This document shows, piece after piece, positions 9,061 to 47,360 of a stretch of DNA of 64,000 bases. The DNA comes from Nitratireductor thuwali (lineage in GTDB: Bacteria > Pseudomonadota > Alphaproteobacteria > Rhizobiales > Rhizobiaceae), in contig NZ_CP030941.1 in assembly GCF_036621415.1 (NCBI RefSeq), positions 2,292,001 through 2,356,000 of the forward strand, in the 5' to 3' direction. Made by a program: the position numbers and the translations under genes. Under the pieces are notes generated by a model that did no database searches, was not told the origin of the DNA, and saw only the letters and a program-made list of their open reading frames with translations. Each line of letters starts with the position of its first letter. Within the stretch, counting starts at the first letter, position 1.

Positions 9061-10341
9061 TCAAGCCGCCTTGGCGAGAGCCTGCTGGAGCGCCTTGGCA
9101 AGGTCGGTCCGCTCCCACGAGAACGAGCCGTCACGCGCGCCCGGCTTGCGCCCGAAATGGCCATAGGCTGCCGTCCTGGCGTAGATCGGCTTGTTGAGGT
9201 CCAGGTGACGGCGGATGCCGGAAGGCGAAAGATCCATCACCTGCCGAATGGCGATCTCTATCTCTTCCTCGCTTATCCGGCCCGTGCCGTGCAGGTCGAC
9301 ATAGACCGAAAGCGGCTGGGCGACGCCGATCGCATAGGAAAGCTGGATCGTGCAGCGGTCGGCCAGCCCTGCTGCCACGACGTTCTTGGCCAGATAGCGC
9401 GCCGCATAAGCCGCCGACCGGTCGACCTTGGTCGTGTCCTTGCCGGAGAAGGCGCCGCCGCCATGGGCCGCCGCGCCGCCATAGGTGTCGACGATGATCT
9501 TGCGGCCGGTCAGGCCCGCGTCCCCGTCCGGACCGCCGATGACGAATTTCCCCGTCGGGTTGATGTACCAGCTGCAATCGTCGGCAATGGCAAGCCCGCC
9601 GCTGGAAAGCGCTTCGCGGATATAGGGCTCGACGACCTGGCGCACCTTCTTGTTGTCCCAACTCGGATCGAGGTGCTGGGTGGAAAGCACGATCTGGGTG
9701 GCTTCCTTCGGCTTGCCGTCGGCATACCGCACGGTCACCTGGCTCTTGGCGTCGGGGCCGAGCTTGGCTGCGTCGCCGATCCCCGATTTGCGGGCGTCGG
9801 CAAGAAGCTGGAGGATGCGGTGAGCGTAATAGATGGGTGCCGGCATCAGGTCGGGCGTTTCGCGGCAGGCATAGCCGAACATGATGCCTTGATCGCCTGC
9901 GCCTTCCTCGCCTTGCCGGTCGGCGGCGCTGTCGACGCCCTGGCCGATATCGGAAGACTGGCCGTGCAGCAGCACGTCGATCTTGACGGTCTTCCAGTGG
10001 AAGCCGTCCTGCTCGTAGCCGATAGCCTTGATGGCGCGCCGCGCGGCGGAGCGGAATTTGGACGGATTGACGGCCGGGTTGCCGCTCTGGTCGAGGACGG
10101 TGTTGCCGTCCTTGTCCTTCTTCAGAAGGCTCTGCGGAACGCGCACCTCGCCGGCTATGATTACCCGGTTGGTGGTTGCCAGCGTCTCGCACGCGACGCG
10201 CACTTTCCAGAGGTCCATTCCCTCCTTCTTGGCTTCGCGGTAGACCAGGTCCACGATTTCATCGGATATCCGATCGCATACCTTGTCCGGATGCCCTTCG
10301 GAGACGGATTCACTTGTGAAGAGATAGTTCTGGCGCGCCAC
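9061..10341 (-). CDS. metK: S-adenosylmethionine synthase
   Basis: MetK makes S-adenosylmethionine from methionine and ATP. I choose the GTG at 10341 as start: GAGGGG lies about ten bases upstream and the N-terminus [21 protein letters not shown] is the family norm. The product has 426 residues. ATP-binding and active-site motifs [22 protein letters not shown] and [16 protein letters not shown] are present. Two short stretches of extra sequence ([12 protein letters not shown] region) are usual for alphaproteobacterial MetK. It is followed closely by trmB and preceded by a structured leader. Confidence 0.97.
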
Positions 10342-10403
10342 GGGTAACCCCTCTGAGAAAAAACGCCGGCACGACGCCGGCCACTGGCGGCACCTTGTTA
10401 CCC
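10342..10403 (-). promoter_or_regulatory. metK leader with nested hairpins
   Basis: Read on the minus strand, GGGTAAC (10397-10403) is perfectly complementary to GTTACCC (10342-10348), which ends immediately before the metK GTG start. Between them sits GCCGGC-gtcgt-GCCGGC followed by G and six T residues (10358-10381), an intrinsic-terminator shape, and then the AGAGGGG ribosome-binding site. A promoter-like TTGACC lies just upstream at about 10420-10427. The hairpin may simply end the preceding regulator's transcript, or the leader may control metK. I could not fit it to a SAM riboswitch consensus from memory. Confidence 0.5.
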
Positions 10404-10525: not shown

Positions 10526-10951
10526 CTACTCGGGCGTTGCTGCCGCATCCGCGGCGAGTGCCTTGACCAGGTCCAGTATCTTGCGCCGCACCTTCGGGTC
10601 GCTGATCTTCACGAATGCGCGGTTGAGCTGGATTCCCTCGGAGCTGTTGAGGAAATCGGCCACATAAGCCGTCCCATCCTCCTGCAGGCCGGGAGCCGGC
10701 AGTCCGTCTTCGCCCGGCGCGCCTTCGAAGAAGAAAGATACAGGCGCGTTCAGGATCGAGGCGATGGCCTGGAGACGGCTGGCGCCCACCCTGTTGGTGC
10801 CTTTCTCGTACTTCTGGATCTGCTGGAATGTGATGCCCAGGCTGTCGCCGAGCTTTTCCTGACTGACACCGAGCATGTTACGGCGAAGCCTGATTCTGCT
10901 CCCAACATGTATATCAATCGGATTAGGCTTCTTTTTGTTGTTCTTATTCAT
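10526..10951 (-). CDS. Cro/CI-type helix-turn-helix regulator (PraR/PhrR-like)
   Basis: The 141-residue product begins with a lysine/asparagine-rich tail and carries an N-terminal XRE helix-turn-helix (IRLRRNMLGVSQEKLGDSLG, then ITFQQIQKYEKGTNRVGASRL). The C-terminal part (about 80-141) has no known ligand domain and ends in an alanine-rich tail. Regulators of this form next to metK are common in rhizobia and include PraR/PhrR proteins tied to quorum sensing, attachment or stress. That assignment is by resemblance and position only. It lies between lnt and metK on the same strand. Confidence 0.85.
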   Translation of the reverse strand: MNKNNKKKPNPIDIHVGSRIRLRRNMLGVSQEKLGDSLGITFQQIQKYEKGTNRVGASRLQAIASILNAPVSFFFEGAPGEDGLPAPGLQEDGTAYVADFLNSSEGIQLNRAFVKISDPKVRRKILDLVKALAADAAATPE

Positions 10952-11069: not shown

Positions 11070-12614
11070 TCAAACTGAGCGCCCCCGCATTCTTATTAGC
11101 AGCGCCAAAATGGCAAAAACAGCGATAAAAGAAAGCCCTTCCACCCCAAAAACAGCGAAATTCGTGCATTCTGCACGTATGACAGGTAATCGAACGTCGA
11201 GCATACCGTTGGCGTTGTCGGCGAGGCCGTCGAGGACGCGTCCATGAGCATCGATCACGGCTGAAATTCCTCCCGCACTTGCCCGCGCCATGCTCAAACA
11301 GGCTTCGGCAGCGCGGAATTGGGCTTGCCGCAGGTGCTGGTAGGGCTGCGACGTGCCCGAATATGCGCCGTCGCTTGCCAGCGCCACGATGAAATCGGCC
11401 TCGCCCTTCTGCTCCCGCGCTGCAAACGGGATCACGGTCTCGCCGCCCAGGAGTGGAAGTGCCGCAAGACCGCCCTCTGTGGCAAAAAGCCGCCGCGAAG
11501 AGCCCAGCGCATAGTCCAAGCCGAGCTGTTCGAAGCCCAGCTGCCGAAGGTGGTCCGCAAGAGGTATGTAGTCGGCAAAGGGAACCATCCGCGTTTGATC
11601 GGCGGCATCGGCGATTTCGCCAGCACCGTTGACCTTGACGGCGGCATTGTAGACCCGACGATCCGTATTCCCCGTTCCCGATTCGGTGCGCAGGGTGCCC
11701 GCGATCAATGTCTGGTCCGGCCCAAGCGCCTCGGCAAGCGCATCCAGCACGTCGGCCCGTTCCGACGGTGTGAAGGGCAGCGCCCGTTCAGGCCAGATGA
11801 CGAACCGGGGCGATAGCCCGTCCCGCATCGGCGGTGCCCGCGAAAACATGACGAGGTCCGCAGCAGCATCGCCGCGCGCCGCCGGGCCGCTCGTCTGCAC
11901 GATGCGGATGGGGATGTGGCGCTCCGCTTCGGTGGCGTCCGACAGGCGGAAGAAGCCATAGCCCACCGTGGCGACGGCAAGGATCATGGCCACGGCCAGG
12001 CCGCTGCGCACATGCTTTCGCCCGCCAAGAAGCGCCGGCGCCGCGAATACGAACACGGCAATGGCGCTCATGCCGGCCGGTCCCGCTAGGGGAAGCAACT
12101 GCATGAACAGGGGCGAAGGCATTGCCGTGTAGCCTATCGTGTTCCAGGCAAAACCCGATAAGACCAGGGCCCGCAGCCACTCGGCGAAACCGAACCCGAA
12201 GGCAAGGCCTGCGACGCGGCCAAGCCCGTCATCCCAGAAAGGGCGGGCGAAGAGCGCCGCGGTCCCATATGTGACCGCCAGCAATGCAGGCAATCCGATG
12301 GTCACGACGGGCAGGGCCCATGCGTGCTCTCCCCCCTCGGAAAGCAGCGGCACGCCCAGCCACCACATGCCGGCGAGGAAGTAGCCAAATCCGAACCACC
12401 AGCCGGTGGAGAAGAAGGGAAAGGCGCGGCCGATCACGCCTCCCCGGCCCACCGCCCCGTCCAGCAGCCACACCAGAAGGCAGAAGGCAATGAAGCCTGC
12501 GGCAAGAAAATCGACGGGCGCGAGCGCCAGTGCAGCCACCCCTCCGGCGGCAAGTGCGCAAAGCCTGCGTGGCCAGCCCCACAGCAAGATCACCCAGCCC
12601 GCGAGACTTTCCAT
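11070..12614 (-). CDS. lnt: Apolipoprotein N-acyltransferase family protein, catalytic residues altered
   Basis: The 514-residue product has the Lnt layout: an N-terminal membrane domain with several segments (about 1-225), a nitrilase-fold domain (about 235-485) and a last membrane helix. Lnt adds the third acyl chain to lipoproteins at the inner membrane, using a Glu-Lys-Cys triad. Glu is present (VIWPE, residue 276). By alignment with recalled rhizobial and E. coli Lnt, the Lys before VPFGEY is Gln (ADQTRMVPFADY, residue 340) and the Cys of LICYE is Gly (LLGGE, residue 390). The frame is intact. Its place between corC and metK is the normal lnt locus, so loss or change of activity would be notable. 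Confidence 0.85.
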   Translation of the reverse strand: MESLAGWVILLWGWPRRLCALAAGGVAALALAPVDFLAAGFIAFCLLVWLLDGAVGRGGVIGRAFPFFSTGWWFGFGYFLAGMWWLGVPLLSEGGEHAWALPVVTIGLPALLAVTYGTAALFARPFWDDGLGRVAGLAFGFGFAEWLRALVLSGFAWNTIGYTAMPSPLFMQLLPLAGPAGMSAIAVFVFAAPALLGGRKHVRSGLAVAMILAVATVGYGFFRLSDATEAERHIPIRIVQTSGPAARGDAAADLVMFSRAPPMRDGLSPRFVIWPERALPFTPSERADVLDALAEALGPDQTLIAGTLRTESGTGNTDRRVYNAAVKVNGAGEIADAADQTRMVPFADYIPLADHLRQLGFEQLGLDYALGSSRRLFATEGGLAALPLLGGETVIPFAAREQKGEADFIVALASDGAYSGTSQPYQHLRQAQFRAAEACLSMARASAGGISAVIDAHGRVLDGLADNANGMLDVRLPVIRAECTNFAVFGVEGLSFIAVFAILALLIRMRGRSV

Positions 12615-12778
12615 GATCTGGCCTTCGCCCCCGAATCAAAGACCGGAATCTAGCAGTTCGGCATGCAGCCTCAAACCGAGGCGGACGAGCCAGCGGGAAA
12701 GACCGACTTTCGGTCGATGGGCATTGCAGACCTGCGGCAAGGCAGGATAACAGGGTTCCGGTAAATCGGGTGCCCAGG

Positions 12779-13386
12779 ATGGATGACATACTTGAAGGGT
12801 ACGCGGCCGCAGCGACGCCTTTCCTGATCGCGCGGTACGACGGGTTTGACCCCAGGCAGCTCTATGCGCCGGTTCTTGATCTCTTTCCTGCAGCGCCTGT
12901 TCGTGTCGCCGACATAGGAGCGGGGACTGGCCGCGATGCTGCCTGGTTCGCTCGGCAGGGACATGGCGTGCTCGCCGTCGAGCCCGTCAAAGAGCTTCGC
13001 GAGCCGGGAATGGCGCTGCATGCGCGCGACGGAATCGAGTGGCTGGACGATAGGCTTCCTCACCTGGCAAAACGCAGATCCTCGGCCCGTTCGACCTGGT
13101 GACCTTGTGCGGCGTCTGGCAGCACATCGACGGCGAGGCGCGACAAATCGCCATGCCGCGTCTCGGGCGGATCGTAGCGGCTGGCGGCCTGCTGGTCATG
13201 TCTCTTCGCCATGGCCCGGGAGCGCTTGGCCGGCGCGTCTTCCCCGCGTCACCAAGGGAAACCGTCGAATCGGCGACAAAGGCGGGCTTCGTTCTGCTGC
13301 GTCGGTCTGAAGCTGGCTCCATTCAGCCGGGAAACCAGTTGATGGGCGTTCGCTGGACTTGGCTCGCCTTCAGGAAACGCCGATAA
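12779..13386 (+). pseudogene. Class I SAM-dependent methyltransferase, frameshifted
   Basis: Two adjacent frames read as one protein. The first (ATG 12779) contains the SAM-binding glycine motif VADIGAGTGRDAAWFA and runs through WLDDRLPHLAK; the second continues GPFDLVTLCGVWQHID and ends LAFRKRR. The shift falls at an A-run at 13069-13072: adding one A restores a continuous frame of about 200 residues through KTQILGPFDLV. It is therefore either a decayed gene, a sequencing error in a homopolymer, or less likely slippage. Substrate is unknown. It is divergent from lnt. Confidence 0.7.
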
Positions 13387-13467
13387 AGCATCGGCTACGG
13401 CCGACTGTTGGAAATGTTCGGCCCTCGCGCATCTGCGCGACCTTGTGCCGGCATAAGGGGATGTGCC

Positions 13468-13914
13468 ATGCCCTTGATCCTGAGGCGACTTGCTTTGGAG
13501 GAGATGGACAGCGCCGCCATCATTCATCGGGCAGCCTTCGACGCGCGCCTTCCTTGGCTCGCAGGGCTTCACACGCCGGAGGACGACCGCGCCTATTTCA
13601 GACGGCACGTCTTTGCGGAGTGCCAGGTCTGGGGTGCTGTCGATGGCGAGACGATCGGCATCATCGCCTTCCGTGAAGGCTGGATCGATCAGCTATACGT
13701 GCTCCCGGAGCATCAAGGTCGAGGAGCCGGCGACGCCCTGCTGCAGCGAGCGAAAGCCGCGTTCCCAAGCCTGAAACTCTGGACCTTCAAGGAAAACGTC
13801 GCCGCTGTCCGCTTCTATGAGAAGCGTGGCTTTGTTGCGGTCAAGGAGACTGACGGTCGCGACAACGAGGAGCGCGAACCCGATGTCCTCTATCGCTGGG
13901 AACGGACCGTATGA
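13468..13914 (+). CDS. GNAT family N-acetyltransferase
   Basis: The 148-residue product starts at ATG 13468, with AAGGGG about seven bases upstream; longer in-frame starts lack this. The acetyl-CoA-binding motif is clear: IDQLYVLPEHQGRGAGDALL (about residues 71-90), followed by ENVAAVRFYEKRGF. These are the A and B motifs of the GNAT fold. The acceptor substrate cannot be told from sequence. It lies 81 bp after the broken methyltransferase on the same strand and may once have been co-transcribed with it. Confidence 0.85.
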   Translation: MPLILRRLALEEMDSAAIIHRAAFDARLPWLAGLHTPEDDRAYFRRHVFAECQVWGAVDGETIGIIAFREGWIDQLYVLPEHQGRGAGDALLQRAKAAFPSLKLWTFKENVAAVRFYEKRGFVAVKETDGRDNEEREPDVLYRWERTV

Positions 13915-14068: not shown

Positions 14069-15142
14069 TCAGCTTTCGGCAGGCTTGGCCGCCCGCCGTC
14101 TGCGGTCGGTCATGCGGCCCTGCACAATGCGCACGCGCTTGATGCGCCGCGGATCGGCATCGATAACGTGGAATTCGAAACCGGGTATAGCCTGGACAAC
14201 CTCGCCCCGCGCCGGCACCCGGCCCAGCGCGTTGAAGATCATGCCTCCGATCGTGTCGACCTCCTCGGCATGTTCGCCCGCGTCGAATCCGGCGCCGATG
14301 GCCTCTGCCACGTCCTCGATCTCCGCCTTGGCGTCGACGATGAACACGCCGTCGCCCTTCTGTTCGATCAGCGGCTCGTCTTCGTCGTGTTCGTCCTCGA
14401 TGTCGCCGACCACCATCTCGACGATGTCTTCCAGCGATACCAGGCCGTCAGTGCCGCCATATTCGTCGATGACGAGCGCCATCTGGATGCGGCCGGCCTG
14501 CATCTTCGCCATAAGGTCGGAGGCCAGCATGGATGGCGGCACGAAAAGCAGCGGCCGCATGATGCTGAGTTCGCCGATGGTTTTGGTGAGGTCGACGCTG
14601 CCGAGATCAAGAGGCGGCGTCTGGGCGGTGGTCTTCCCGTTGCGGCGGCCCTTCTTCTGCCGGGAGGAGCGGATGAGATGGCCAACCACGTCGCGGATGT
14701 GCACCATACCGCGTGGATCGTCCAGCGTCTCGCCGTACACGGGCATGCGCGAGTGGGCGCAGCGCTCGAATGTGGTCAGGAGATCGCCCAGCGTCGTGTT
14801 CAGGTCCACCGCCTCGATGTCGGCGCGCGGCACCATGACGTCCTCCACGCGCAATTCGCGCAGGCGAAGAATGTTCTTCAGCATGGCGCGCTCGCCGGGT
14901 GAGAAGGGGGCCGTTCCATGCCGATGCTCGTCTAGCGCATCCGCCAGGTCGTCGCGCAGCGAGTTGCCGTTGCGCATCCCCAGATAGGAGACGACGCGTT
15001 GCAATAGAGGCGTGCGGTGTTGGCTGTGTTCTCGGGGTCTACTAGACCCCTCTTCGCCCTCGGAGGGCGAGCCGGCGTCGCTGGGGGGCGAATCGCCGAC
15101 GGCTGTCATTGTCGTTTCAGTCATCGTCTTTCGATCGTTCAA
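14069..15142 (-). CDS. CorC/TlyC-type hemolysin-family CBS domain protein
   Basis: The 357-residue product has no clear membrane segment. It has an N-terminal Ser/Pro/Glu-rich region, a tandem CBS-domain pair (VMVPRADIEAVDLNTTLGDL to EYGGTDGLVSLEDIVE, about 115-255) and a C-terminal CorC_HlyC domain (GMIFNALGRVPARGEVV). Proteins of this class are linked to magnesium or cobalt efflux or to membrane integrity; the old hemolysin name is not evidence of toxin activity. It lies 9 bp after ybeY on the same strand, a conserved neighbour pair. Confidence 0.92.
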   Translation of the reverse strand: MNDRKTMTETTMTAVGDSPPSDAGSPSEGEEGSSRPREHSQHRTPLLQRVVSYLGMRNGNSLRDDLADALDEHRHGTAPFSPGERAMLKNILRLRELRVEDVMVPRADIEAVDLNTTLGDLLTTFERCAHSRMPVYGETLDDPRGMVHIRDVVGHLIRSSRQKKGRRNGKTTAQTPPLDLGSVDLTKTIGELSIMRPLLFVPPSMLASDLMAKMQAGRIQMALVIDEYGGTDGLVSLEDIVEMVVGDIEDEHDEDEPLIEQKGDGVFIVDAKAEIEDVAEAIGAGFDAGEHAEEVDTIGGMIFNALGRVPARGEVVQAIPGFEFHVIDADPRRIKRVRIVQGRMTDRRRRAAKPAES

Positions 15143-45141: not shown

Positions 45142-46332
45142 TCAGCTCCGATAGGGTTCGAGGATGAGGTCGCGCGTGACCATGACGCGGACCGGAAAGC
45201 CGGGACGAATGGTCAGGGTTGGCGGAATGGAAATCTGACGGCGCACGATCTCATCACCGGCGCGGCCGACTGTATCCTGTGTCCCCTCGCGAATGGCGCG
45301 GGCAATATCACTCTCATTGTCGGTGCCAAGCTCCACACCGATATTGAGGACGGTGGCGAGACCGGCCGCCATGAACAAGCGGCCCCAATGATGATCGACG
45401 CCGTCTTCGAGCCCGGCGTAGCCGGCTTCGTCGGCGCCGGGCTGGCGTTCAAGAGTAATGGAGCGGCCATTGGGCAGGATCAGCCGGGTCCATACCAGAA
45501 GCACCCGGCTCTGCCCGAAGGCGACGCGGCTGTCATATTCGCCGATGAGACGCGACCCTTGCGGCATCAGGAGGAAACGCCCGGTCGGACTGTCATAGAC
45601 ATGGGATGTCACCTGGGCGGTAATCTGGCCGGGAAGATCGGAGCGAAGGCCAGTAACAAGTGCCGCCGGAATGACCGCGCCGGCTTGGACAACATAGGGG
45701 CTTGGCGGATCGGTGAGCCGGTCGGTACTCGTCGTGCGGCGATCGACAGGTTCGTCGAGAAAGGCCTCGCGCCGTTCCGTCGCGTCCGGCGCGGTGGAAG
45801 CCGCATTGGCAGGAAAGAATGACTCGGCGGTGGGCGGAGCGGCAGCCACTTGCGTGGTTTGCGGCTGTGCCTGCACGGTGGTGCTGGCTTCGGCAAAGAG
45901 TTGGCTGAGGCGGGCCGCTTCCATTTCCTGGGCGCGGCGCTGTTCCTCGGGATCGGCGGCCGGGGTGGTGACAACTGGCGCGGGGACCGGCTCGCCGCGC
46001 TGCCGGGCCGACAGGATCGGCCGTCCGAGTTCGCCAGGCAGCGGCGGGCCGAGCTGCGGCACATCCGTGTAATCCGCCGGCAGGCGCGACAGGCCTTCAG
46101 CCTCCTGAATGCGTTCCGTGGAATAGAGCTCTTGCGGGCCATCGACAGGCTCGAGGTCCTGCAGGGCAACGATCAGGATGGCGCCGAGCCCAAGACCGCC
46201 CACCGTTCCCAGAACCATGAGCGTCCGGCGTGAGAGCCGCATGACACGTGGCGGATCGGCGCGCAGTCTCAGCGACGCAGCGATGTCCTTCCCGTCTTCG
46301 ATCTCCGGCCGTTCCTCTGTTTTCTCGCTCAT
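45142..46332 (-). CDS. trbI: Conjugal transfer protein TrbI (VirB10-like)
   Basis: TrbI forms the periplasm-spanning scaffold of the mating channel, linking inner and outer membranes. The 396-residue product has a cytoplasmic head, one membrane segment (TLMVLGTVGGLGLGAILIVAL), a Pro/Ala-rich stretch, and the C-terminal VirB10 domain (AGAVIPAALVTGLRSDLPGQ, GSRLIGEYDSRVAFGQSR in parts). Its start overlaps the trbG stop by one base. Confidence 0.95.
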   Translation of the reverse strand: MSEKTEERPEIEDGKDIAASLRLRADPPRVMRLSRRTLMVLGTVGGLGLGAILIVALQDLEPVDGPQELYSTERIQEAEGLSRLPADYTDVPQLGPPLPGELGRPILSARQRGEPVPAPVVTTPAADPEEQRRAQEMEAARLSQLFAEASTTVQAQPQTTQVAAAPPTAESFFPANAASTAPDATERREAFLDEPVDRRTTSTDRLTDPPSPYVVQAGAVIPAALVTGLRSDLPGQITAQVTSHVYDSPTGRFLLMPQGSRLIGEYDSRVAFGQSRVLLVWTRLILPNGRSITLERQPGADEAGYAGLEDGVDHHWGRLFMAAGLATVLNIGVELGTDNESDIARAIREGTQDTVGRAGDEIVRRQISIPPTLTIRPGFPVRVMVTRDLILEPYRS

Positions 46333-47360
46333 TAGCGGCCTCCACCAGAAGAATGGTGTGCGGCTACGCTCTGCCGCACACCGTCGGTGCGGACGATCCG
46401 TACCCGTTTCTGTTCGTCGCCGAGGCGTAGCTCGGCGGCGGCGAAGAGCCGGTCGACGATCATGTAGTTGCGGCGAATGCGGTAATTGACGAGCTGGCCT
46501 TCGCCTTCGGGCCCAATGACAAAAAGCGGCGGCATTTCCCCCTGACCGACCCCGCGCGGAAACTCGATGAAGACCTGCCGCCCGTCATCGAAAGCGCGCC
46601 GCGGCCGCCAGGGCGCGCGGTCGCCTTCGATCCGGTAGCGGAAGCGCAGAGAGTCGAGCGCGACATCGCGTTCGATCGGCAGCGCGGCCTCAGCCTCGAC
46701 ATTACGTCGCCTGAGGGCGATCAGCGCGTCCTCGGCATAGGTCCAGGAGACCGACGCCATATAGGCGGACGGATTCGCCCTCAGTTCGAGATGATAGGTG
46801 CGCCGGTCGGTGTTGATGACGAGATTGGTCTGGAGATCGGGCCGTGTCGGTTTGACGAGGATATGGATGCGCTGGGAATCGCCCGAGCCGCTCTGCGTAT
46901 CGCCGATGATCCAGCGGGCGGTGTCGCCGGCGGCGATCGGACCGGAGCCGGTCAGCTTCTCGCCGGGTTGCAGGGCGATGTCGGTGATCTGGCCTGGCGA
47001 GGCATAGACCTGATAAAGCGCACCCTCGCTATACGGATAGAGCTGGACGGCATTGATGAAACCGTCGCGCACCGGCTCCATTCGGGCGGCGGCGTTCGCC
47101 TCGGTCACGCGTTCGGCAGGATCGGCGGATTCCGGTTCTTCTTCCTCGCCATCGACCGGCTTGAGCTGTCCCGGCAGGGGCAGCGGTTCGGTTCGCTCGA
47201 CGATCCGCACCGGCCGTTCCGGTTCCGGGAGAAGCGTCGCTTCGATGGCGGGTTCGTCATAGGCGATTTCCGGCGGCTTGAAGGTCGCGCATCCCGACAA
47301 GGCGGTGGCGGCCAAAAGGACGGCGATGGAGGCTTTGCGAGGCGGACGTGTTCTTGTCAT
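46332..47360 (-). CDS. trbG: Conjugal transfer protein TrbG (VirB9-like)
   Basis: TrbG is an outer-membrane-complex component. The 342-residue product has an N-terminal signal with a lipobox-like ATALSGCATF (probable lipoprotein), a Pro/Glu-rich linker, and the VirB9/CagX C-terminal domain (YHLELRANPSAYMASVSWTY, YRIRRNYMIVDRLFAAAELRLG in part). It overlaps trbF at the start (ATGA) and trbI at the stop. Confidence 0.94.
   Translation of the reverse strand: MTRTRPPRKASIAVLLAATALSGCATFKPPEIAYDEPAIEATLLPEPERPVRIVERTEPLPLPGQLKPVDGEEEEPESADPAERVTEANAAARMEPVRDGFINAVQLYPYSEGALYQVYASPGQITDIALQPGEKLTGSGPIAAGDTARWIIGDTQSGSGDSQRIHILVKPTRPDLQTNLVINTDRRTYHLELRANPSAYMASVSWTYAEDALIALRRRNVEAEAALPIERDVALDSLRFRYRIEGDRAPWRPRRAFDDGRQVFIEFPRGVGQGEMPPLFVIGPEGEGQLVNYRIRRNYMIVDRLFAAAELRLGDEQKRVRIVRTDGVRQSVAAHHSSGGGR

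Follow-up and report, generated by a model that had tools for sequence, protein, structure and literature searches.

Triacylation of lipoproteins is regarded as the Gram-negative norm, with the third fatty acid added by apolipoprotein N-acyltransferase (Lnt). The two-domain build of Lnt is reported as confirmed (PMC10313180), and according to PMC6971011, residue W237 is required for transfer to lipoprotein, while W237A and E343A variants do not rescue cells without lnt. A mycobacterial Lnt homologue, BCG_2279c, was reported not to compensate for Lnt and shares its cell with an active Lnt paralogue (PMC3850990). Loss of lnt is described as tolerated where the transporter LolF occurs, the bacteria with LolF in which Lnt is dispensable including Helicobacter pylori, Francisella tularensis, Neisseria gonorrhoeae, Acinetobacter, and Sinorhizobium meliloti (PMC7240156, PMC11784454). 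Alphaproteobacteria are reported to carry LolF, lnt is given as non-essential in S. meliloti, and the tolerance of LolF for diacylated lipoproteins has been argued from lnt mutants and the species distribution of LolF (PMC7240156, PMC11784454); Wolbachia is described as having no lnt homologue (PMC7240156). Here, we examine a 64,000-nucleotide stretch of the Nitratireductor thuwali genome (contig NZ_CP030941.1, positions 2,292,001 to 2,356,000; hereafter the window), which encodes an Lnt homologue without the catalytic Cys.

Active-site residues of the window protein

The gene lies on the minus strand, as do all window features below for which no strand is given. It starts with ATG and runs from 12614 to 11070 (11070..12614), encoding 514 amino acids; on the plus strand over the same interval, stops interrupt the frame, and the initial annotation had named no strand. 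The product belongs to the Lnt family by profile (TIGR00546, 236.5 bits against a curated cut-off of 132.9) and carries both Pfam domains, PF20154 and PF00795. The predicted Lnt fold appears to be kept in the Cys-less protein, with a membrane domain (residues 1–225, 11940..12614; LNT_N match at 23–190) that is the better conserved part in Cys-less relatives, and a nitrilase-like domain (residues 230–480, 11175..11927; CN_hydrolase match at 272–476) that is the more relaxed part.

Residue equivalences were counted by hand along alignments of the window protein to Lnt entries of the Protein Data Bank (PDB). E267 of Escherichia coli Lnt corresponds to Glu276 (codon at 11787..11789), K335 to Gln340 (11595..11597), and C387 to Gly390 (11445..11447). 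The initial annotation, made from the letters of the window alone, had read the same three residues, and its reading was borne out by both the E. coli comparison and an alignment of 233 sequences; in neither alignment does a Lys or Cys of the window protein fall at the triad positions. Beyond the triad, E343 is replaced by D348 and Y388 by G391, E389 is retained as E392, and W237 falls opposite a gap, the W237-bearing loop of canonical Lnt being missing at residues 241–249 (11868..11894). The catalytic Glu is thus present, and the catalytic Cys, the catalytic Lys, and W237, E343, and Y388 are absent.

The 233-sequence alignment comprised 204 Cys-bearing and 29 Cys-less sequences, the latter representing about 20 distinct proteins, as named loci and database proteins overlap. 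E267, K335, E343, Y388, and E389 were each found in 204/204 Cys-bearing Lnt sequences, and W237 in 194/204. The Cys-less sequences had Gly (28/29) or Asp (1/29) at the Cys position; all 29 were missing W237 and Tyr388, one had E343, and K335, E267, and E389 were retained in 19, 26, and 28 of them, respectively. Gln and Gly at the Lys and Cys positions also occur in Nitratireductor luteus (77% identical) and in database protein P0001 (97% identical), and because these proteins share both residues, an assembly error does not account for them. Given the residue losses and the failure of the W237A and E343A variants to rescue, the window protein is very unlikely to catalyse acylation through the known mechanism, and these alignments strongly indicate that N-acyltransferase chemistry has been lost. 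The suggestion in the initial annotation that the protein either does not N-acylate lipoproteins or has taken another role gains support from the loss of two of three triad residues along with W237, E343, and Y388.

Distribution and genomic context

We searched 16 genomes of the genus (3.3–5.8 Mb), most named members of which are Chelativorans. Named members are N. luteus, Chelativorans alearense, C. xinjiangense, C. salis, and C. intermedius, and further members are Chelativorans strains YIM 93263 and Marseille-P2723. TIGR00546 matches over the cut-off were found in 12/16 genomes, and none in 4/16. A full-length Cys-less Lnt, with an open frame in every case, was present in 11/16 (window genome counted), the Cys position being Gly in 10 and Asp in G167; a native Cys-bearing Lnt was present in 0/16. 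This genus-wide loss in the sampled genomes goes beyond what could be seen from the window, and no paper on Lnt loss in the genus was among the matches listed in our literature searches. In a tree of eight flanking proteins (some genes were missing for some taxa; nusA, for example, was available in 22/31), the genus was set apart from the 15 outside taxa at 100% support; its neighbour was Mesorhizobium sp. J18, which has an Lnt with a complete triad. Since all genus lineages are without a native Cys, catalysis was most likely lost in the genus ancestor. Change has gone furthest in the G167 protein (L103), which has the longest branch and whose triad positions read Gly, Lys, and Asp. For C. alearense, C. 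salis, and C. intermedius, the Cys-less proteins bear the database name apolipoprotein N-acyltransferase, which probably misdescribes them.

For wider context, the class was sampled with 389 genomes at least 95% complete (window genome counted), of which 383 had lnt over the cut-off and 386 had any match. In the family, lnt was found in 296 of 297 genomes, including five of the genus. Both scans record lnt presence only; the Cys was checked solely in the 233-sequence alignment. Three genomes from other families of the class (G352, G374, and G387, each at least 95% complete) gave no lnt match at all in the class scan. In the family scan G057 looked like a further loss, but its lnt is matched piecewise, and the pieces together reach 197 bits, which exceeds the cut-off.

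In relatives, lnt sits between corC and the genes for a helix-turn-helix (HTH) regulator and metK. The conserved neighbours in the window are the HTH regulator downstream of lnt (10526..10951), a gene that we take to be metK (9061..10350, start approximate), and a gene for a CorC/HlyC-type protein upstream (14069..15142). The interval between lnt and corC is about 1.2 kb longer in the window than in N. luteus; the extra DNA (12770–13914, plus strand) encodes a GNAT acetyltransferase and has an open frame of 110 aa that resembles a methyltransferase (PF13489, scoring under its cut-off).

Elsewhere in the genus, some members no longer have corC beside the lnt-HTH-metK block, and in five genomes (G297, G299, G301, G304, and G305) corC adjoins the HTH gene, with 627–868 bp between them and no lnt. 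We looked for lnt remnants in these five slots by tblastn and then compared scores against 100 dinucleotide shuffles of each. The best match in the G305 slot was a 33-residue stretch (E = 7e-4) whose score was reached by 1/100 shuffles, so that this slot may hold a weak trace of lnt; no trace was found in the other four slots, where tblastn E-values were 0.17–0.39 and 49–91 of 100 shuffles did as well. The five genomes group together, support being 89% for four of them but only 42% for G297, and one or two deletions are therefore possible.

G299 encodes a different Lnt, with an intact E-K-C triad and only 28% identity to the window protein. The gene shares a stretch with lspA (L154 8164–11046, G299:C11), which by reading of the sequences also holds genes for a metal-type P-ATPase and for DsbD-like and DsbA-like proteins, and looks mobile. 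This foreign lnt is 90.5% identical to a plasmid gene of Aquibium oceanicum and 84.8% identical to one of Nitratireductor rhodophyticola. A tblastn search with the G299 Lnt matched 277 plasmid records, the match spanning 80% or more of the query in 194, and the matches listed (20 of the 277 plasmid records) were all annotated as apolipoprotein N-acyltransferase.

Substitutes, sorting genes, and selection on the remnant

The initial annotation had raised the possibility of a second lnt elsewhere, which our search did not support. In the window genome (99.93% complete, three contigs), no second lnt over the cut-off was found by profile search, and the three other matches, all below it, were two nitrilase-family amidases and a TraB-type conjugation protein. 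The last of these, a nitrilase-superfamily protein on the third contig (L004 1414–2832, minus strand; G000:C3), has an ICYE motif and is distantly Lnt-like. Among the other 15 genus genomes, whose sub-cut-off matches were read in part, a second kind of over-cut-off match was found only in G299. Family TIGR01906, which we take to be the Lit family, was rejected as a substitute for Lnt: it was found in 0/16 genus genomes and, among 14 controls, only in Lactococcus lactis.

The rest of the pathway was present throughout the genus. Lgt, LspA, and LolA were each found in 16/16 genomes, as was one over-cut-off LolC/E-type permease, giving all 16 the gene set of LolF-type sorting. A second permease match of about 169 bits (cut-off 362) occurred in G281, G300, and G307, and a few genomes had fragments below 25 bits. 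LspA was present in multiple over-cut-off copies in G298 (three), G299 (four), G301 (two), and G304 (two). We compared LolF between 16 sequences inside the genus and 29 outside (of 30 genomes outside, G006 yielded none) and saw no sign of remodelling, because sequences are as similar across the genus boundary (67.5% identity) as among the outside taxa (67.0%). At three positions that are at least 90% conserved outside, 75% or more of the genus departs from the conserved residue. The lack of any sign of remodelling fits a transporter that already accepted diacyl lipoproteins. Separately, the window encodes a CagX-type conjugal transfer protein (46332–47360) with a lipobox-like LSGC close to its N-terminus.

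We then asked how the remnant has evolved, using hand-picked pairs for the tests of nonsynonymous to synonymous rates (dN/dS), domains, and differences. Seven Cys-less pairs gave dN/dS of 0.219, 0.231, 0.238, 0.249, 0.281, 0.198, and 0.135 (the last from G306/G302, where dS is saturated at 3.36), each well below 1; five canonical pairs gave 0.084, 0.126, 0.095, 0.209, and 0.290, a range that overlaps. By domain, four Cys-less pairs gave 0.105–0.187 for the membrane part and 0.225–0.323 for the nitrilase part; the corresponding values for five canonical pairs were 0.057–0.277 and 0.058–0.309, with the two parts of any one pair alike. Amino-acid differences were enriched in the nitrilase domain in 3/3 Cys-less pairs (p = 1e-6, 0.005, and 2e-6) and 0/3 canonical pairs. 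The ratio of lnt to flank branch lengths was 4.92 inside the genus versus 1.70 outside, with 4.33 on the stem, and for the nitrilase domain it was 6.15 versus 1.61; the terminal-branch test covered all 15 outside branches and 10 of the 11 inside ones, with C. alearense (ratio 7.9) omitted for a flank length below 0.01. The Cys-less protein thus evolves about two to four times faster than canonical Lnt, chiefly in its nitrilase domain, where many canonical active-site positions vary freely. In one sample, near-invariant positions of the membrane domain numbered 79 in Cys-less and 83 in canonical proteins, counts that depend on the sample (17 Cys-less sequences versus 40 drawn at random from 186 canonical ones). 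Collectively, constraint on the remnant is relaxed throughout and most in the former catalytic domain, and is far from absent. That the frame is intact and not in simple decay, as first proposed, held up on both the open frame and the purifying selection, yet the protein evolves faster than canonical Lnt.

Proposed account and comparison with known systems

The protein in the window would derive from a normal rhizobial Lnt. With the Cys, Lys, Tyr388, E343, and W237 gate gone, it would form no thioester acyl-enzyme and transfer no acyl group by the known mechanism, and this loss of catalysis, which most likely predates diversification of the genus, is well supported by the alignments. Lgt and LspA would still make lipoproteins, and we infer that these remain diacylated and that a LolF-type transporter (LolDF) able to take diacyl substrates hands them on to the outer membrane. 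After the loss, the Cys-less protein would have come under weaker selection, being kept in 11/16 genomes and deleted in 5/16. Where retained, it may have a non-catalytic membrane role, for which we prefer binding of lipoproteins or phospholipids through the better conserved membrane domain. We judge this account as a whole, from inactive Lnt through LolDF sorting of diacylated lipoproteins to a non-catalytic remnant, to be probable. Its extension, that a genus outside the reduced endosymbionts gave up N-acylation and turned Lnt into a non-catalytic factor, such as an escort or quality control between LspA and LolF, is offered tentatively.

Several points weigh against this account. The whole protein is accelerated, membrane domain included (ratio to flanks 3.06 inside versus 1.26 outside), and two of the five canonical pairs, at larger distances, have dN/dS values (0.209 and 0.290) like those of the Cys-less pairs. 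Diacylation in the genus is itself an inference, and the foreign intact Lnt of G299 hints that N-acylation can still be useful. The loss of the gene from five genomes is also compatible with slow decay, and the main rival is that the Cys-less protein is a roleless relic heading to deletion. Its raised lnt-to-flank ratio, the freely varying active-site positions, and the empty slots, with a possible weak trace in G305, would all be expected of such a relic; open frames in 11/11 Cys-less genomes, dN/dS well below 1 in 7/7 pairs, and the near-equal number of near-invariant membrane-domain positions in one sample would not, and we consider this rival unlikely, though deserving of attention.

N-acylation might instead continue through an unknown, non-homologous enzyme outside the searched families. 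Lnt is said to be retained by nearly all Gracilicutes, and Lnt-less mutants are reported to pay a fitness cost (PMC11784454), which favours such an enzyme; the window genome has no second over-cut-off lnt and the genus no TIGR01906 member, in a search limited to known families, and we regard this alternative as improbable. Least credible of all is that the Cys-less protein remains an active N-acyltransferase through altered chemistry. Although it would keep its predicted fold, and the E267 and E389 equivalents persist in most Cys-less sequences (26/29 and 28/29), the Cys position offers no nucleophile (Gly in 28/29), and W237 and Tyr388 are lost in 29/29.

Returning to the account of an inactive Lnt tolerated by LolF, the window protein differs from the Lnt of E. 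coli and Pseudomonas aeruginosa in its lost Cys, Lys, Tyr388, E343, and W237 loop. The closest precedent for an inactive Lnt homologue is BCG_2279c, in which the catalytic Cys is likewise replaced; unlike that case, no active Lnt was found in the window genome, more residues are lost, and the whole genus, as sampled, is affected. The genus shares one LolC/E-type permease, Lgt, and LspA with the LolF bacteria in which Lnt is dispensable, but those bacteria possess lnt and its disruption was experimental, whereas here the loss came by evolution. A genus with an Lnt loss of its own offers a natural experiment on the need for the third fatty acid, and its three naturally occurring conditions (inactive protein retained, gene deleted, and foreign gene gained) make the tolerance of LolF testable in cultured species. 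Wolbachia is, like the genus, alphaproteobacterial and naturally without Lnt, but it is an endosymbiont, whereas the genus has genomes of 3.3–5.8 Mb.
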